Source: a virus. From it: a DNA stretch of 25,500 nucleotides. The notes under the pieces were generated by a model. It made no database searches. It saw only the letters and a list, made by a program, of their open reading frames with translations, and was not told the DNA's origin. The stretch lies in the IMG/VR virus record IMGVR_UViG_3300028197_000141, positions 1 through 25,500 of that record. One strand, given 5' to 3'. Made by a program: the position numbers and the translations under genes. Below, piece by piece: positions 15,020 through 22,423 of this stretch (position 1 is the stretch's first letter; every line of letters begins with the position of its first letter).

Positions 15020-18000
15020 TTAAGCTCTGTTTAATTTAAATTTATTCACTGCACTTCTTTCTCCTCTATCCATAACTACATTGGTAACTTTATCTCTATC
15101 TAAATAAATATCTCTCTGTGATGATGTTGCTTGTATTAATTGGTCCATCTTATTTAACATATTTGTTTCATATTCACTTAACGTACCACCTTCTATTGCA
15201 CCAGCTTCAGATGATTCTCCTCCACCGAAACCAAATATCTCAGCAACAAGTGCAATTCCTGCAGATGCAGCGGCAATACCAATTAAAGTAGGTAATGCAA
15301 ATATTCCAGCTGCTCCTAAGAACATCAATGAAGCTGCTAATCCCATAAATGCTAATGATAATAATCCAATTGGTGCAATTGTTCCCATAATTCCTTGAAG
15401 TAATGGAGTAAGTTGTGTTAATGTAGTCATTACACTTCCCATTCCTCCTCCAATCATCTGAAGTCCGAAACCTACCAAATTCAGCCCAACCCCTAATAAT
15501 ATCATTACTCCTGATAATCCTAATAATGAAGGCAATGCCAATGCTGATGCTAATCCTAAAATTCCCAATGAATATGCCAATGCAGCAATTTTGGCTACAT
15601 TTTCTAATGTTACAACTTCTAAAACAGAAGATAATCCAGTAGCAAATGTACCCATACTTTCACTCATTGTTACAACTGCGGATGTAATCATTCCAAGTGC
15701 ACTTCCTAGTACACTCATTCCAGCCCCAACCATCATGATTGCAATTCCTAATCCCATCATCACACCTACTCCCATTCCACCTAATACTCCTAAAATTGCT
15801 AGTGAAGCTCCTAATGCTAAAAGAGAATACGCAAACAATCCAACAAGTACTACTTGTTTTAAAGTTATACCTGCCATGAAAGTACCCAAGGCGGGTAATA
15901 ATAATGAAAATCCTGCTGCTGCCATCATAATTCCGGCACCCATCATCATTGCTCCTGCTCCAATTAATGCTAAACTTGCACCCAATCCAACTCCTGCTGC
16001 AATTAATGCGGCTAATCCAAGTGCACCAACTCCAGAAACCATTGCTGTTCCTAATGCAATTAATGCAGGAACTAAAGCGGCTATTCCTCCAGCTGCAAGT
16101 GGTCCAGCTATTGCTAGTAACATCATTGCAGGTATACCTGCTAATAATATTCCAAATGCCAATCCTGTAAGAGCAACTGCTCCAATACCAGCAAATGTAC
16201 TAGCCATAGCGGTTAAACCAGGTGCTAATGCAATTAAACCTGCTCCTGCTCCTGCTCCTAAGAGTGAAACTCCTAACATACCAGGAAGACCTGCTATTAT
16301 TGCTACAAATCCAATTGCTGTTGGTATTAGGTTAAGTGCTCCGAAGAGAACTTTTGCATTACCCATTGCTTTTAATCCACCGGCAAGACTCTTTAATGAT
16401 TTACCAGCTCCTCCACCTTTTGCTCCCTTTGTATCTGGAACTTTTACTTTATCAGCTACACTAGATGCTCCTTTACTTGCAACAGATTTAGCTCCTTTAG
16501 CAGCTCCTCCACCAATACCCATCATACTACCAACTTTGATAGCTGCTGCTTTTGCTAAATAGATAGGGTACATAATTAAATGTTTCAATCCTTTTTTCAA
16601 ACTACCAACCATACCACCCATATCCATTCCAAGTGCTTTGAATCCTGTTCCCATTTGACCAGCTGCAGTAACCATACCACCCAATCCTTTAAGACCAGTA
16701 CCAAGGTATTTATTTAATCCTGCATTTATTGATTCTCCTGCTACTGAAAAGTTTTCTGATATTACACTACCTAATGAACCTGCATTTTCCATTTTAGAGT
16801 TCATCTTCTGCAATTCTGCAACAGATACACCTAATAAATCAGCAGTTTGTTTCTTTTGGTAGTAATCCATTTTATTGAATGCATCTATACCACCAAGTTC
16901 TTTAAGAGTTTCTCTTGTTGCTCCTTCTATATCACCCGCATATGCAAGTTCTCTTGCTTTGTTAAGATTAATGTTTCTACCTAACATTGCCCCTAACTCT
17001 AATTCTTTTGTTACAGATGATTCGAAATCAAGTAATCCTTCTGCTATACCACTAAGTGTGGCCATATTTGTACCAAGTTTAGCGGCATATCCTGCAGCTC
17101 TTAGAATGTTCTCACCACCATCTTTACCAAATAATGCAAACTCTTCAGCTGAATTTGCTAAATCTCCCATCAATTGGGCTGGAATGATTCCATTTTGTTT
17201 TGCAAATTCTTGAGAGGTTTTTGACATATCTAATGCCACATCAGTTGAATTTCCATTCAACATTGAAAATGAGCTTACTAATTTGGTTGCCTCACTACCA
17301 CTAATACCCATATTGGTAGCCATTAAACCAACACTTGCTTGTAATTCAAACGTTGCTTTGTTCGTATCACCAAGTGCTGCACTTAAATCTTTAGCAGTTG
17401 TTGCTGCATCACTAAATACTAATGATAATACACCAGCACTTCTCCCAACACCATCTGCTTGGAACATTGAAGTTCCTAATTCTGAATTTACTTCACCAAT
17501 CTTACCAACAACTACACCAAATCCTGATATTAAACCACCTACAGCTCCTGTTATGTTACCATATAGAGTTTTAACGGTCATTAATGTACCTTGAATAGTT
17601 TTCTTTACACCTTCAAGTAGATCATGTTGGGATTGTATTAACTCTTTTTGTTCAGAACTCATGTCAGCATAATTCTGTGCTAAACTATTCTGTTGTTTTA
17701 GTGATTGAATAACTTTAGTATTTCCATGAAGAATCGTACCAAGAGATCCCATCTGGTCGTTATACTCATTTGTAAGAGCCGCTCGAGCTTCAACATCTTC
17801 CGAACCCAATTGTGCAATACTTCTATTGAGTTCTTGGATTTTAGTTATAGTTGATAGACCTTCTTTATCTATTGAAGTAATATCAGTTTTAAATTTAGTA
17901 TTTTCTGAAGCTAATCTTAAACCTTCTGTTTGTAGGTCGTTTAAATCACCATACATAGAACCCATTGACTTGATAGAGCTTTCTTCACCTTTCAATGCAT

Positions 18001-18178
18001 CTAACTTTTCTTGTCTAAGTTCTGATATTTCTTTTCTAAGTTCTTTTTGTTTTGAAATGAGAGATTCTAACTGCTTTTGTTCTTTTTCAGTTAGCGCAAT
18101 AGATTTCTTCTGAAGTTCAATCTTTTCAGCTTGTACCTTCTTAGCTTCTTTTAATATCTCAGCATCATTTCTTGCCAT
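15020..18178 (-). CDS. Tail tape measure protein
   Basis: A 1052-residue protein. Residues about 1-190 are charged coiled coil (LKEAKKVQAEKIELQKKS, KQLESLISKQKELRKEI). A helical core at about 200-480 includes ATNMGISGSEATKLVSSF and GRNINLNKARELAYAGDIEG, as in tape measure core domains. A Lys/Gly/Ala-rich segment leads into a long run of Gly/Ala/Leu-rich hydrophobic helices at about 605-985, suited to membrane insertion during DNA delivery. The C-terminus is polar (LIQATSSQRDIYLDRDKV). Length sets tail length in this family; at about 1.5 angstrom per residue the helical part would span a tail of roughly 1500 angstrom. The gene follows tube and chaperone genes and precedes baseplate genes. Confidence 0.9.
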   Translation of the reverse strand: MARNDAEILKEAKKVQAEKIELQKKSIALTEKEQKQLESLISKQKELRKEISELRQEKLDALKGEESSIKSMGSMYGDLNDLQTEGLRLASENTKFKTDITSIDKEGLSTITKIQELNRSIAQLGSEDVEARAALTNEYNDQMGSLGTILHGNTKVIQSLKQQNSLAQNYADMSSEQKELIQSQHDLLEGVKKTIQGTLMTVKTLYGNITGAVGGLISGFGVVVGKIGEVNSELGTSMFQADGVGRSAGVLSLVFSDAATTAKDLSAALGDTNKATFELQASVGLMATNMGISGSEATKLVSSFSMLNGNSTDVALDMSKTSQEFAKQNGIIPAQLMGDLANSAEEFALFGKDGGENILRAAGYAAKLGTNMATLSGIAEGLLDFESSVTKELELGAMLGRNINLNKARELAYAGDIEGATRETLKELGGIDAFNKMDYYQKKQTADLLGVSVAELQKMNSKMENAGSLGSVISENFSVAGESINAGLNKYLGTGLKGLGGMVTAAGQMGTGFKALGMDMGGMVGSLKKGLKHLIMYPIYLAKAAAIKVGSMMGIGGGAAKGAKSVASKGASSVADKVKVPDTKGAKGGGAGKSLKSLAGGLKAMGNAKVLFGALNLIPTAIGFVAIIAGLPGMLGVSLLGAGAGAGLIALAPGLTAMASTFAGIGAVALTGLAFGILLAGIPAMMLLAIAGPLAAGGIAALVPALIALGTAMVSGVGALGLAALIAAGVGLGASLALIGAGAMMMGAGIMMAAAGFSLLLPALGTFMAGITLKQVVLVGLFAYSLLALGASLAILGVLGGMGVGVMMGLGIAIMMVGAGMSVLGSALGMITSAVVTMSESMGTFATGLSSVLEVVTLENVAKIAALAYSLGILGLASALALPSLLGLSGVMILLGVGLNLVGFGLQMIGGGMGSVMTTLTQLTPLLQGIMGTIAPIGLLSLAFMGLAASLMFLGAAGIFALPTLIGIAAASAGIALVAEIFGFGGGESSEAGAIEGGTLSEYETNMLNKMDQLIQATSSQRDIYLDRDKVTNVVMDRGERSAVNKFKLNRA

Positions 18179-18200: not shown

Positions 18201-18404
18201 TTATTTACTATAATCTGCGAAAAGCTTATCTAACTCACGCTTTTCTTTTTCGATTTGTTTCATCTTATCGAGTACTGCTTTAGGCATACCAGCTTTCTTA
18301 GCTTTATCTAAATGTCTCCTTGTAGTATTGGTTTTAACACCATCAAAGAAATCTCCGATAAACTTACTAATACCCAATCCCTCGTTTATATTTTTTTTAG
18401 CCAT
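18201..18404 (-). CDS. Small basic protein between chaperone and tape measure genes
   Basis: A 67-residue lysine-rich protein: MAKKNINEGLGISKFIGDFF, then TTRRHLDKAKKAGMPKAVLDKM and a charged helix ending KRELDKLFADYSK. It is predicted helical with no membrane segment. It starts right after a terminator-promoter cassette and ends 22 bases before the tape measure ATG, so it heads the tape measure transcript. A role in tail assembly is suggested by position only. No family is recognised. Confidence 0.7.
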   Translation of the reverse strand: MAKKNINEGLGISKFIGDFFDGVKTNTTRRHLDKAKKAGMPKAVLDKMKQIEKEKRELDKLFADYSK

Positions 18405-18445: not shown

Positions 18446-18477
18446 AAAAAAAAAGTGAGGAAGTATTACCTCCTCAC
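18446..18477 (-). terminator. Intrinsic terminator at the end of the second chaperone frame
   Basis: Minus strand: GTGAGGAGG, loop TAATA, CTTCCTCAC, then nine T. Nine pairs form, one a G-T wobble. The stem begins inside the last codons of the chaperone extension and that frame's TAA stop lies in the loop, so a ribosome reading to the end would cover the hairpin. Confidence 0.85.
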
Positions 18478-18732
18478 ATTTACATTTGGACCTCGTCCTC
18501 CTTTTTTCTTGGAGGCCTTGTCATGTTCTTCTTTTTCTTTTTTCTTAGCTTCTAATAACTTTTTGAAATAGAAATTTCTCCAATGGATTGGCATGAAGTA
18601 AACTTCTGACCAAGTAAATCCATTACCGTAATTAACCATTTCCCAAATTTGGTTATGAAGTTGGATCGAGTAATCACTCGGAAGGGTAAAAAAACCCAAT
18701 CCCAAATGGGATATCAAGTGCCTCCTGCTCAC
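18466..18732 (-). CDS. Second tail-chaperone reading frame (probable frameshift extension)
   Basis: An 88-codon frame beginning at GTG 18732 and overlapping the end of the upstream gene by 59 bases in another frame. A TAA lies two codons before the GTG. Residues from about 16 on look like real protein: TLPSDYSIQLHNQIWEMV, then GFTWSEVYFMPIHWRNFYFK and a lysine-rich tail. The first 15 codons (SRRHLISHLGLG) look like overlap by-product. The gene sits between tube and tape measure, the classic place for gpG/gpGT-type tail chaperones, where a small share of ribosomes shifts frame to add a second domain. A +1 or -2 shift at T7 (18694-18688) would join the two frames into about 323 residues. Independent start at GTG or an inner TTG after AGGAGG is the alternative. 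Confidence 0.7.
   Translation of the reverse strand: MSRRHLISHLGLGFFTLPSDYSIQLHNQIWEMVNYGNGFTWSEVYFMPIHWRNFYFKKLLEAKKKEKEEHDKASKKKGGRGPNVNVRR
18667..18697 (-). promoter_or_regulatory. Candidate frameshift site: GGGTTTTTTT, 7-base spacer and hairpin
   Basis: The minus strand reads GGG TTT TTT TAC in the first frame (18697-18688 for GGG plus T7). The second frame is reached by skipping one T or slipping back two. After a spacer ACCCTTC, a hairpin CGAGT-GATT-ACTCG (18680-18667) contains the first frame's TGA stop. Slippery run, spacer and hairpin have the usual order of a programmed frameshift. Confidence 0.6.
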
Positions 18733-19438
18733 CGGTTACATCTGAGGTGAAGTTGAATTTCAAATCCAAGTCAGGTGTAAACTCTTGTATGTACTTCCTA
18801 AGAGCTCTCGAATCTCTAGCAAGTAAACTGTTTTTTACGAAATTATTAATATATGCTCTATCTTCATTACCACCCACATCTTGAATCATGTATCTCAATC
18901 GAGTTGTAACATCTTGTGATACTACCTCACCTTTAGTTAATCTATTAAGTGCTTGTATTTCAGCATTAATATCTTTTTCATCTTTATGTGTTAGTAATCT
19001 AAATATAATTTTTTTCTTACCAAGTGGCAAATCAAAATCATATCTGTTTTCTGAATTTAAATTCTTTTCATCAACTTCTTTAACTTGAACTTTGGAAAGG
19101 TCTATGTTGACTTTTTGTTTTTCTCCTGATGATGGGTCTGTTATCTCTACTTGATAATCTTTTCCATATCCTAAGATACGTGTTGCTAATAAAATAGCAT
19201 TCTTATCACCAATGAATATATCACCTACATCAACTCCACTATCTACAACTACAGATTCGAATAATTTATCAAGTACCACTCCTTTTTTAATAAGGTTCTG
19301 TGATGCTAATATATCCTCTTCTTTAGCTGTCATATACTTTATTTCAATCGTACCCTTTGATAAAGGATTTGATTCGGGATAAAGTTTACCCTTAGATGGA
19401 AGATCTATTACTTCCGTTGGAAAATCATACTTTGCCAT
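18674..19438 (-). CDS. Tail assembly chaperone / baseplate hub assembly protein (gp26/gp51-like)
   Basis: A 254-residue soluble protein. It opens MAKYDFPTEVIDLPSKGKLYPE and GTIEIKYMTAKEEDILAS, a pattern typical of T4 gp26-like proteins and of related tail chaperones (LPS+G, ...KEED). ILLATRILGYGKDYQVEI and FRLLTHKDEKDI follow. It lies between tube and tape measure genes, where chaperones that wrap the tape measure are encoded. Its 3' end overlaps a second frame through a candidate slippery T7 run, so it probably makes both a 254-residue form and a rarer longer one. It has its own terminator-promoter cassette upstream (19521-19462). Hub-assembly versus general tail chaperone is not resolved by sequence. 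Confidence 0.72.
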   Translation of the reverse strand: MAKYDFPTEVIDLPSKGKLYPESNPLSKGTIEIKYMTAKEEDILASQNLIKKGVVLDKLFESVVVDSGVDVGDIFIGDKNAILLATRILGYGKDYQVEITDPSSGEKQKVNIDLSKVQVKEVDEKNLNSENRYDFDLPLGKKKIIFRLLTHKDEKDINAEIQALNRLTKGEVVSQDVTTRLRYMIQDVGGNEDRAYINNFVKNSLLARDSRALRKYIQEFTPDLDLKFNFTSDVTGEQEALDIPFGIGFFYPSE

Positions 19439-19490: not shown

Positions 19491-19521
19491 GAAAAAAAAA
19501 GGCTCTCACTAAGAGAACCTT
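19491..19521 (-). terminator. Intrinsic terminator after the tail tube gene
   Basis: Minus strand: AAGGTTCTC, loop TTAGT, GAGAGCCTT, then a run of T. Nine pairs form with one T-G wobble. It starts 28 bases after the tube stop codon. It would let the tube and sheath, needed in many copies, be expressed apart from the chaperone. Confidence 0.88.
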
Positions 19522-19549
19522 CTTCACTAAAATATATTTAATTTGATTA

Positions 19550-20038
19550 TTAGAATTCTAAGATTGCGTAATCATAAGATAATGTTAACGTGATTTCTGC
19601 TGGGTCATTTGAACTCCAATCTAAATCATTAAACACTGCGTTATTGATAAATGCACCTTTAAGAGTCCATTGTTCAATCTTATCACCAACTGGTCCTAGT
19701 AGGTAACATTGGATATCTTTCTTATAGAAATCTGCATATCCATCTCTACCTGTAATAGATTCGTGTGATGTTCTCACCCACTCCATTACTGCTTGAGCTC
19801 CACTTGGAACGATTGGGTCAAATAATGTAATTTCTACATCTTGCCATTCTCCCTTACCCTTTAATTTACGTTTAACGTTAATGTGGTCTAGGGTTATAGT
19901 TTCAAATTGAATTGAAGGTCTATTTGCTGTTTTTATTAGATATGAAGGGATACCATCGATTTCCATGATGAATCTGTTCTTCATCTTTGGTTCGAAATTC
20001 GTATAAAACATATCGTTAAATTCTAATACTTCTGCCAT
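19550..20038 (-). CDS. 19: Tail tube protein (gp19-like)
   Basis: A 162-residue protein, almost exactly the length of T4 gp19 (163). Typical segments are MKNRFIMEIDGIPSYLIKTA, DHINVKRKLKGKGEWQDVEI, DPIVPSGAQAVMEWVRTS and a C-terminal strand ITLTLSYDYAILEF. Hexamers of this protein stack into the inner tube through which DNA passes. The ATG at 20038 has a strong AGGAG upstream and a late-type motif 20 bases away. The sheath gene precedes it and an intrinsic terminator follows it, which fits high independent expression. Confidence 0.93.
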   Translation of the reverse strand: MAEVLEFNDMFYTNFEPKMKNRFIMEIDGIPSYLIKTANRPSIQFETITLDHINVKRKLKGKGEWQDVEITLFDPIVPSGAQAVMEWVRTSHESITGRDGYADFYKKDIQCYLLGPVGDKIEQWTLKGAFINNAVFNDLDWSSNDPAEITLTLSYDYAILEF

Positions 20039-20092: not shown

Positions 20093-22423
20093 TTATGCCG
20101 TAAAAGATGCTCCAGTTGGTAAAATATTGAAATCTAACACGATGAATTCAGCAGTTTTAGTTGGTTGTAAGAAAATCTGTCCAGCCAATATATTTCTGTC
20201 GATTACATCTGGTGTGTTATTACTCTCGTCCATTACCACTCTAAATGCATATAATCCTTGTCTTTGTTGTATTCCTTCTAAATAAGGATTCACAGTATTT
20301 AAGAATTTACCTCTTGTTGTAGAAGTATTTTGTTCAAATACTAAGTATCTTGATGTTGAAGCAATATACTTCTTAACTTTAATCATCAATCTTCTAACAT
20401 TGATTCTATCAAGTGCCGATGCTTTATCTTGAAGAGTCTTTTGTCCAAATGCTACGATACCTTCTCCAGGGAACTGAGCGATTGGATTAATTTTTCCTTC
20501 ATATAATTCATCTCTTTCAGCGTGTGTTAATCTGTTTAGTACAGATATAGCACCTACTATACCACCTCTATTTAAACCTGCTGGTGCGAACCATTCGGCT
20601 GCAACTGCATCGTTAGAAGCATATATCCCAGGCATCAATACTGATGGTGGAACTGAAATTAACTTGTTAGTTCTTGAATCAATTGTTTTAACCCATGGGT
20701 AGTATGTACCTACGTAGTTAGAATCAACTGCTGCTCCTTGTTCGATAGCTTGTGATATTGAATCACCTGCTCCAACAGAATCACCTATGAAGAAACAATC
20801 TTCTCTAGCTTCACACATATCAACTACTTTGTCAAATACATATGAGTGGTGTCTTCTTACAATACCAGGTGCAGATACCAAGTTGATATCAAAATCATCT
20901 GGGTTAGATACTGCTGCAATTGCTTTCACATATGCAACCGAACCTACTGCAATTGAAGTTGATAAGTTAAACCCTTGTGAGTTACCACTTGATATATTAG
21001 CTCCCAAATCGATAGATATTGTTGGGTCTATCCCATCAAATCCACCTTGGAAACCTACTGTAAATTGTCTTTTGTTCATATCAGCTGAAAGTGAACCGGT
21101 TAGTTCATATCCATATGCCTTAGTTCCTCCAACTACATTTACTGTTCCATCAAATGCAAATACTGTGTTTCCACCTTGTGTTGCTGATGTTGGTATTGGA
21201 GATAAATAATTGTTGTTATCTATCTTAACTTGAGCAGTTTCTAAATCAATACCACTAAATGATACATTTTTAGATGCTGAATTTGCATCAGAACCAGTAT
21301 TAAATAATACTGATGGTACGATACTTTCTCCAAGTCCATGAGAACCAATATTACCAACGAAAATTGGATTGTAATATTTATCATGTGCAAATGGTCCAGC
21401 AACGATAGGATGAGCTCCCTCTGCAACACATTCTACTCTTACGAATTTAGAACGGTTAGGGTAATCACCATTTTCTGTTTGCTTTCCAAGTGTATCAATA
21501 ACTAAGTTTCTATCACCAATTACTTTTTTGATGTAATTAGGAGAAGCTGGGTCTAAGTTTAAGTTATTATAAGTTTCTAATACTGATTTTCTTTTATCCG
21601 TATCAGAGTATCCTCTAATCATTAATGAGAAGGTAGCGTAATCAGTTGCATTAGATGAACCTGCTGCTTTTACATTAAATATAGATACTTTATATTCTTT
21701 ATTGTATACAGTACCATCACCGATAGTATGTAATTTGAAAAGGTTGTGTCTTTCACCAGATACTAACTGAGATTGTATCCATGGTGTAGAAGAATGTTGC
21801 ATATCAAACGCTAATGCTTGGTCTGCTAATGTAATCATAGATACTTGTTCTTGACCATTTGAAATTGCAGTAGCTGCTGCTTTTTCAAAGTAGTTATATG
21901 CGTATCCATCTTTAGTTCCTCTTGGATTAATACCGAAAACATCACCTATATCATTTCCAGCTGAAGGATTAATAGAAGCTGATATTCCAGATTCTCCTAC
22001 AAGTGTTATTTCAAAAGCGGATGCTGATACAGATGCAGCTACTGCTGAACCTGCTAATGTTCCACTTCCTAAATGTGTTTCAAATAATGTTCCTATGATT
22101 TTTTGACCCGATACAGAACCACTACTTACTATAGATACTGGTGCTGTTTGGGTATACCCACCTTGATGACCAACACGAACAATAGTTACTGTTCCTGCTT
22201 CTCTAAGATAGTTTTGTACGGTATATCCTGTATAGTATGATCCATCAGGTGTACCGAAAATTTGTTCGAATTCCGATTGGGTGTTAACAATTGTTGGTAC
22301 GAATGCTGGTCCTTTGTGAAAAGGTCCTATTACAGCTGCTCCGATTTCTCCAACTCCTTGTGATAAGAAAGAAAGGTCATTTTCTCTCGTAAAAACCCCA
22401 GGTGATACAATTTTTTCTGCCAT
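20093..22423 (-). CDS. 18: Contractile tail sheath protein (gp18-like)
   Basis: A 776-residue protein opening MAEKIVSPGVFTRENDLSF, with IGAAVIGPFHKGPAFVPTIV and FEQIFGTPDGSYYTGYTVQNYL shortly after, the standard start of T4-type sheaths. The conserved C-terminal domain is also present: RLTHAERDELYEGKINPIAQ, INVRRLMIKVKKYIASTSRY and NILAGQIFLQPTKTAEFIVL. The middle, about residues 100-500, is Gly/Ser-rich and variable, as expected for surface-exposed protrusion domains. It is longer than T4 gp18 (659), implying an enlarged outer domain. The tube gene follows within 60 bases. A strong AAGGAG lies before the ATG. Confidence 0.95.
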   Translation of the reverse strand: MAEKIVSPGVFTRENDLSFLSQGVGEIGAAVIGPFHKGPAFVPTIVNTQSEFEQIFGTPDGSYYTGYTVQNYLREAGTVTIVRVGHQGGYTQTAPVSIVSSGSVSGQKIIGTLFETHLGSGTLAGSAVAASVSASAFEITLVGESGISASINPSAGNDIGDVFGINPRGTKDGYAYNYFEKAAATAISNGQEQVSMITLADQALAFDMQHSSTPWIQSQLVSGERHNLFKLHTIGDGTVYNKEYKVSIFNVKAAGSSNATDYATFSLMIRGYSDTDKRKSVLETYNNLNLDPASPNYIKKVIGDRNLVIDTLGKQTENGDYPNRSKFVRVECVAEGAHPIVAGPFAHDKYYNPIFVGNIGSHGLGESIVPSVLFNTGSDANSASKNVSFSGIDLETAQVKIDNNNYLSPIPTSATQGGNTVFAFDGTVNVVGGTKAYGYELTGSLSADMNKRQFTVGFQGGFDGIDPTISIDLGANISSGNSQGFNLSTSIAVGSVAYVKAIAAVSNPDDFDINLVSAPGIVRRHHSYVFDKVVDMCEAREDCFFIGDSVGAGDSISQAIEQGAAVDSNYVGTYYPWVKTIDSRTNKLISVPPSVLMPGIYASNDAVAAEWFAPAGLNRGGIVGAISVLNRLTHAERDELYEGKINPIAQFPGEGIVAFGQKTLQDKASALDRINVRRLMIKVKKYIASTSRYLVFEQNTSTTRGKFLNTVNPYLEGIQQRQGLYAFRVVMDESNNTPDVIDRNILAGQIFLQPTKTAEFIVLDFNILPTGASFTA

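Follow-up and report, generated by a model that had tools for sequence, protein, structure and literature searches.

A conserved, probable programmed +1 frameshift at the end of a T4-type tail chaperone gene, and its relation to T4 gp26 and gp51

Among the systems already described, the gpG/gpGT pair of phage lambda is close to the arrangement reported here, in that, on the account given in PMC5009743, it lies between the tube and tape measure genes and shifts near the end of the first frame to add a short C-terminal extension. The lambda shift is -1, however, whereas that considered here appears to be +1, in the PF12322 family, with an upstream hairpin as the putative stimulator. A +1 shift in such genes is not unknown, and the haloarchaeal myovirus HSTV-2 is described in the same account as very likely to use one. 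The influenza A PA-X site UCC_UUU_CGU is presented in PMC3498833 as shown to shift +1, and it shares with the present sites the +1 direction and a P-site slip on UUU_Y (Streptococcus phage SagM-GXN1 has UUC_UUU_CGU), although it is read by a eukaryotic ribosome and the site described here is UUU_U with an upstream hairpin. In vitro work with 70S ribosomes, as outlined in PMC6321510, found that a hairpin lying upstream, next to the E site, promotes +1 shifting and dampens -1 shifting, and that a downstream pseudoknot has the reverse effect. This bidirectional model of Huang et al. 2018 resembles the two clades compared below in pairing a hairpin behind the ribosome with +1 and a structure ahead with -1, but it concerns designed constructs with RF2 and A6G sites, whereas ours is an argument from natural sequences. 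The content of Xu et al. 2004, Penno et al. 2015, and Malys and Nivinskas 2009 is drawn on here as it is conveyed by PMC5009743 and PMC3014915. T4 itself has gp26 and gp51, of the same Pfam family, but as two genes that are said to be without a frameshift.

The DNA analysed comes from a 25.5-kb virus record, IMGVR_UViG_3300028197_000141, and the whole stretch of 25,500 nt is referred to as the window. The genes of interest run on the minus strand in the order sheath, tube, ORF1, ORF2, a 67-aa ORF, and a 1052-aa protein, with the following features.

20093-22423, minus: sheath
19550-20038, minus: tail tube protein (Phage_T4_gp19; profile match E 2.6e-10)
19492-19525, minus: terminator-like hairpin with T9, between the tube gene and ORF1
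18674-19438, minus: ORF1, the 0-frame short form, 254 aa, putative tail chaperone of PF12322 (T4 gp26/gp51 family)
18466-18732, minus: ORF2, open frame of 88 aa with a GTG start
18721-18725, minus: Shine-Dalgarno (SD)-like GGAGG at -31 from T7, conserved
18699-18712, minus: upstream hairpin ATCCC-ATTT-GGGAT, 4 nt from T7, probable +1 stimulator
18688-18694, minus: T7 of the putative slip site GGG_TTT_TTT_TAC, with +1 re-pairing of tRNA-Phe on TTT_T (T7 in 74/76 loci, UUU_Y in 76/76)
18466-18687, minus: extension, the part of ORF2 read in +1 beyond the slip; 73 codons and a stop, three predicted helices
18667-18680, minus: downstream hairpin CGAGT/ACTCG, present, not conserved
18446-18477, minus: terminator-like hairpin with T9, directly 3' of ORF2
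15020-18178, minus: 1052-aa protein, probable tape measure

The terminator-like hairpins with T-runs flank ORF1 (19525-19495, before it) and ORF2 (18477-18455, after it), so that the pair looks like a single transcription unit. The 1052-aa protein is a probable tape measure by virtue of its position and of a match to the protein at the equivalent place in Microcystis phage Mel-JY01 (E 3e-23); Pfam and PHROG family searches gave it no match, and it does not match the gene annotated as tape measure at the equivalent place in Flavobacterium phage immuto (E 0.53). Between ORF2 and this gene lies the basic 67-aa ORF (18201-18404), which has no family match above a weak level, and Mel-JY01 and immuto likewise have small ORFs at this position.

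Frame relation and slip site

The initial annotation of this DNA described a probable programmed frame change joining two tail-chaperone frames, and this is strongly supported by the conserved frame, the slip site, and the ORF2 protein. Its structural particulars hold: the 254-codon ORF1 and a second open frame overlap by 59 nt, the long homopolymer in the overlap is T7 preceded by GGG, and the frame arithmetic (GGG TTT TTT TAC in ORF1, GGT TTT TTT ACC in ORF2) calls for a shift of +1 or -2. The coding strand of the whole window has four T-runs of at least seven, and this is the sole one within a gene, the others being intergenic. The ORF1 stop is four codons beyond the two slip codons, and the predicted fusion is 323 aa long. 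ORF1 and ORF2 are a gene pair with overlapping frames between the tube and probable tape measure genes, as tail assembly chaperone frameshifts are, and both the frame relation and the slip site are kept across relatives.

A first set of relatives was gathered in one scan that returned 80 viral loci 50-100% identical to ORF1, which with Mel-JY01 added and five duplicates removed gave 76 distinct loci. The comparison of the T-run proposed in the initial annotation yields T7 in 74 of these and TTCTTTT in two. Elsewhere in the first-set genes TTT makes up 75% of Phe codons, and the occurrence of two TTT codons at the slip exceeds expectation both among 69 representatives (P 1.9e-15) and among 18 that remain after strict clustering (P 2.5e-3). 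At none of the 76 loci does the codon ahead of T7 end in T (0/76 versus 42.4 expected, and 0/18 versus 10.6 with strict clustering); a T there would complete a -1 heptamer, and its avoidance speaks against a -1 shift. With ORF2 in +1 and no such T, the window has no canonical -1 X_XXY_YYZ site. Beyond the slip, the +1 frame is open for 64-86 codons in the 71 loci with complete ORF2s (those in which ORF2 runs off the contig are left out), and its codon 10 is an invariant His in all 75 of the 76 loci that reach it. The pN/pS of ORF2 is 0.54 in its own frame versus 1.20 and 0.93 in the other two frames of the same DNA, which indicates purifying selection in the +1 frame only. The notion that ORF2 is a pseudogene is rejected by this ratio. 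A sequencing error in the T run was likewise considered and rejected, because 76 distinct loci, and finished isolate genomes as well, show this frame relation.

An ORF2 that is a separate gene, started at GTG 18732 or TTG 18717 by internal initiation or re-initiation, has some attractions. The annotated TAA does stand two codons ahead of the ORF2 GTG, but in the window this stop alone would not require a shift, as GTG at -38, TTG at -23, and TTG at -11 from T7 are possible starts; the TTG at -23 sits 3 nt past AGGAGG, and Mel-JY01 is annotated with two overlapping genes. The relatives weigh heavily the other way. No ATG, GTG, or TTG occurs in the +1 frame between the last stop and the slip in 35 of the 76 loci, so that a frame change is needed there, and in 24 a +1-frame stop falls within 2 nt of T7, which excludes a separate upstream start for the family; ORF2 and T7 are still conserved in these loci, and GGAGG is kept even where the TTG is missing. 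Relatives with ORF2 as a non-overlapping gene with its own start, which the initial annotation had said would count against a frameshift, do exist, but amount to two loci (L191 and L196) of the 97 untruncated members of the second set introduced below, the other 95 reading ORF2 in +1. We regard separate initiation as the least probable of the alternatives weighed here. In L191 and L196 the ORF2 is in another frame with an ATG just past the ORF1 stop, as if a separate gene had replaced the frameshift.

Direction of the shift

The initial annotation left open whether the shift is +1 or -2, and it is the sites of more distant relatives that favour +1. Scans from immuto and from record LR756508 gave a second set of 100 loci, of which 97 are untruncated (L123, L199, and L200, 3 of 180 across scans, were left out), and 65 distinct +1 sites remained when duplicates were removed. 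These comprise TTTTTTTGG (27 sites), TTTCTTTGG (26), TTCTTTTGG (8), TTTCTATGG (3), and TTTCTTTAC (1). T7 is missing from 38 of the 65, which have instead TTT CTT TGG, TTC TTT TGG, TTT CTA TGG, or TTT CTT TAC, and the codon ahead of the slip ends in T in four of the 65, before TTC TTT. Four isolates have TTT CTT TGG (immuto), TTT TTT CAC (SP-15), TTC TTT CGT (SagM-GXN1), and CTG TTT CGC (BRock). Serratia phage 3M is excluded from the slip count, since its ORF2 seems to be read in -1 but it showed no clear slip site.

What these sites have in common is UUU followed by U or C, which is found at every resolved +1 site, in all 76 first-set loci, throughout the second set, and in the four isolates. 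The anticodon of tRNA-Phe is GAA, and at all of these sites tRNA-Phe can therefore re-pair one base forward. A -2 ribosomal slip at T7, in the direction used by Mu and adding one extra Phe to the fusion, is allowed by the frame arithmetic, and P-site re-pairing 2 nt back is possible at 74 of the 76 first-set loci, the window included. It is impossible, however, at 38 of the 65 second-set sites, and relatives whose ORF2 is in this frame have TTCTTTT, TTTCTTT, TTTCTA, TTCTTTC, or CTGTTTC sites that do not allow it. Because -2 re-pairing cannot occur at sites without T-runs, we read the shift as +1, and consider -2 very unlikely.

The main rival to a ribosomal slip is transcriptional slippage driven by a stem loop, in which the hairpin behind RNA polymerase would cause one U to be dropped at T7 and the resulting U6 messages would encode the fusion in frame. 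The window does have a stem loop 5' adjacent to the run, which is terminator-like enough to be picked up by a terminator scan, and the near-constant retention of T7 and of a non-T base before it fits a run tuned in length. There is also a precedent, as PMC5009743 describes it, in a Roseiflexus insertion sequence, where a stem loop 5' adjacent to a slippery T5C5 gives transcripts lacking one C and the +1 frame is likewise reached. Many relatives in the present family, by contrast, have no homopolymer: the 38 second-set sites without T7 use the same frame, the run in SagM-GXN1 and BRock is no longer than T3, TTCTTTT stands in place of T7 at two first-set loci, and the spacing from hairpin to run is as much as 6 nt. 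Transcriptional slippage thus fits the window but not the relatives without T runs, and we think it unlikely.

A +1 slip of the ribosome, by which ORF1 and ORF2 would form one gene for a tail assembly chaperone pair with an upstream hairpin as stimulator, is in our judgement quite likely. Features that can be read from the alignments themselves are the frame relation, the conservation of the slip site, the upstream hairpin, coding selection on ORF2, and the need for a frame change in relatives; that the change is ribosomal we infer, and its efficiency likewise. Most ribosomes would complete ORF1 to give the 254-aa short form, and a minority at GGG_UUU_UUU_UAC would slip +1 as the P-site tRNA-Phe moves its pairing from UUU to the UUU one base further on (some relatives have UUC there). 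Subsequent reading of ACC CUU CCG would add a 73-residue, mostly helical extension to give the 323-aa long form. The mRNA hairpin, refolding in the wake of the ribosome with 0-6 nt between it and the slip codons, would prompt the slip, and the SD-like GGAGG that immediately precedes the hairpin probably assists. The roles of lambda gpG and gpGT would here fall to the short and long forms, with the tape-measure protein and tail tube as their targets.

Hairpins and the GGAGG motif

Codons -11 to -7, -3, -2, and -1 before T7 deviate from normal usage by about 0.7-2.5 bits, against a background median of 0.25, and the upstream hairpin together with GGAGG explains much of this departure. The ATCCC/GGGAT hairpin that had been noted ahead of T7 is present and is the conserved one of the two described, although in the window it is modest (5 bp, -5.5 kcal/mol). 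Its 3' base falls 0-6 nt before T7 in 75 of the 76 loci and 9 nt before it in one. The mean MFE in the 30 nt before T7 is -7.9 (z -1.15) in the first set, compared with -0.9 to -3.3 in stretches ending at least 15 nt before T7; the second +1 set gives a fainter signal (z -0.51), and SagM-GXN1 has no upstream hairpin (MFE 0). The register varies by lineage while the fold recurs, and because of these differences RNAalifold finds no single consensus in the ungapped +1 set. Covariation in one register group, a group chosen by its folding register, exceeds all 500 shuffles, and a second register group shows none beyond shuffles. The upstream hairpin is a probable conserved stimulator of the +1 shift.

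GGAGG is found exactly at -31 in 47 of the 76 loci (0.03 expected per upstream stretch), and similar motifs occur at -33 to -27 in the second set. A position of -31 is beyond ordinary SD reach unless the hairpin loops out the spacer, and where GGAGG is present the folded hairpin leaves 4-16 nt from it to the second UUU. The layout calls to mind T4 genes 38 and 25, whose ribosome-binding sites are split: by the account in PMC3014915, folding brings the SD closer, to 5 nt instead of 22 for gene 38 and to 11 nt instead of 27 for gene 25. The resemblance is suggestive only. The gene 25 site sits at the gene 26-25 junction, and gene 26 is an ORF1 homologue. T4 gene 26 (L089:3803-3850) ends in the hairpin CTCAAAG-AGTT-CTTTGAG, which is part of this split site and within which its FF codons (TTC TTT) fall. 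An outer stem of GGAGG with CCTNCC was considered and set aside, since it could not pair around a ribosome or polymerase at T7; the two motifs co-occur, with both in 44 and neither in 19 of the 76 loci.

The downstream CGAGT/ACTCG hairpin of the initial annotation is present in the window but not conserved (only 4 of 75 relatives have all five pairs at the corresponding offsets), and it is rejected as a stimulator. In longer downstream stretches of the first +1 set (12 to 72 nt) the mean z is about -1.0 with no common set of pairs, and a weak downstream element may be present.

The chaperone family, the -1 clade, and T4

ORF1 belongs to PF12322 (T4 gp26/gp51, base plate) with E 7.6e-13 and 49.1 bits against a curated cut-off of 24.5, and also matches PHROG 150. 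It is modelled with a pLDDT of 90.2, and ORF2 modelled alone gives three helices at 77.5. The best structural match to ORF1 among 796 aligned solved chains is the HK97 tail assembly chaperone 2ob9 (91/107 residues, rmsd 5.0), at Z 5.0, where values below 8 may mean merely a common arrangement. Foldseek alone gives this pair a probability of 0.33 and E 2.0, and against the PDB it found no ORF1 match at E <= 0.001. The second-best structural match (5ir0_B, Z 4.2) is a protein of unknown function from a Vibrio cholerae PICI-like element. The gp26 homologue of Acinetobacter phage Octan (MT409116.1) is annotated 'tape measure protein assembly chaperone', which agrees with a chaperone reading. From their position and family, the ORF1 and ORF2 products would act as tail assembly chaperones. 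On this reading, programmed frameshifting, an event of a type already known, occurs in a family new to it, that of T4-type tail chaperones, where it is conserved, runs in the unusual +1 direction, and has its stimulators arranged in reverse.

Scanning with gp26 of cyanophage S-RIM8 yielded 80 loci, in all of which ORF2 is in the -1 frame, and with six named phages added the -1 set numbers 86 (L191 and L196 being left out of these counts). The sites are canonical X_XXY_YYZ heptamers, T_TTT_TTC in 85 and T_TTT_TTT in one. SD-like tetramers lie mostly at -15 to -12, about 10 nt upstream, and among 76 distinct loci there is no upstream hairpin (z +0.18) and a downstream structure signal (z -1.08). 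By sequence, then, the cyanophage-type clade appears to mirror the +1 clade, with a -1 shift and structure downstream. T4-type phages outside the coliphage group (L201-L280 and L094-L100) have the T_TTT_TTC site at the end of gp26. In the records of S-RIM8, Melnitz-1, and phi-ST2 the extension is entered as a gene of its own, with a 'hub catalyst' or hub-assembly label, and in S-RIM8 and Melnitz-1 this annotated gene is short and starts past the ORF1 stop. Cyanophage 'gp51' genes seem to have been annotated from internal ATGs and are worth rechecking as frameshift products.

T4 gp26 matches PF12322 over residues 1-206 of 208, and gp51 over residues 1-201 of 249, so that a C-terminal extension remains. 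With hhalign, the -1 ORF2 profile aligns to this extension (Prob 96.3, E 1.2e-9), with no match to gp26 or to a reversed control, and the gp51 extension thus appears homologous to ORF2 of the -1 clade. The +1 ORF2 profile aligns moderately to the -1 ORF2 profile (Prob 36, E 6.4e-5), but does not reach gp51 directly (Prob 0.3-0.5, not significant). Because gp26 is whole-length PF12322 and gp51 is the same domain with an extension like that of the -1 ORF2, we interpret gp26 as the short form and gp51 as the long form, and T4 probably encodes the two as separate genes. A literature search, thin on subscription papers and so short of proving absence, found no paper that calls gp26 and gp51 a frameshift or two-gene chaperone pair.

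We lean somewhat toward a broader view in which all of the PF12322 family produces both a short and a long form: by +1 with an upstream hairpin in the clade of the window, by -1 with downstream structure in cyanophage- and KVP40-type phages, and by two diverged genes in T4, one of them the essential and unexplained gp51. T4-type tails would then be no exception to the rule that a long tail requires two forms of chaperone, and the bidirectional rule worked out in the laboratory would have been run within one family. If gp26 and gp51 are short and long chaperones, T4, being a standard laboratory phage, would allow a direct test. The +1 cassette would provide a small, naturally occurring UUU_Y site preceded by a hairpin, with relatives that use the opposite direction and the opposite placement of the stimulator.

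A tree of 136 PF12322 sequences, in the portion of it listed, separates the +1 from the -1 group into two halves, LR756511 excepted. For phage EC-F2 a gene annotated 'hypothetical protein' was picked by position to stand in for gp26; it grouped with the gp51 sequences, and its identity is therefore doubtful. LR756511 (L087), a huge-phage record that lies in the +1 half in the listed portion, has a -1 shift at T_TTT_TTC, an apparent switch of direction.
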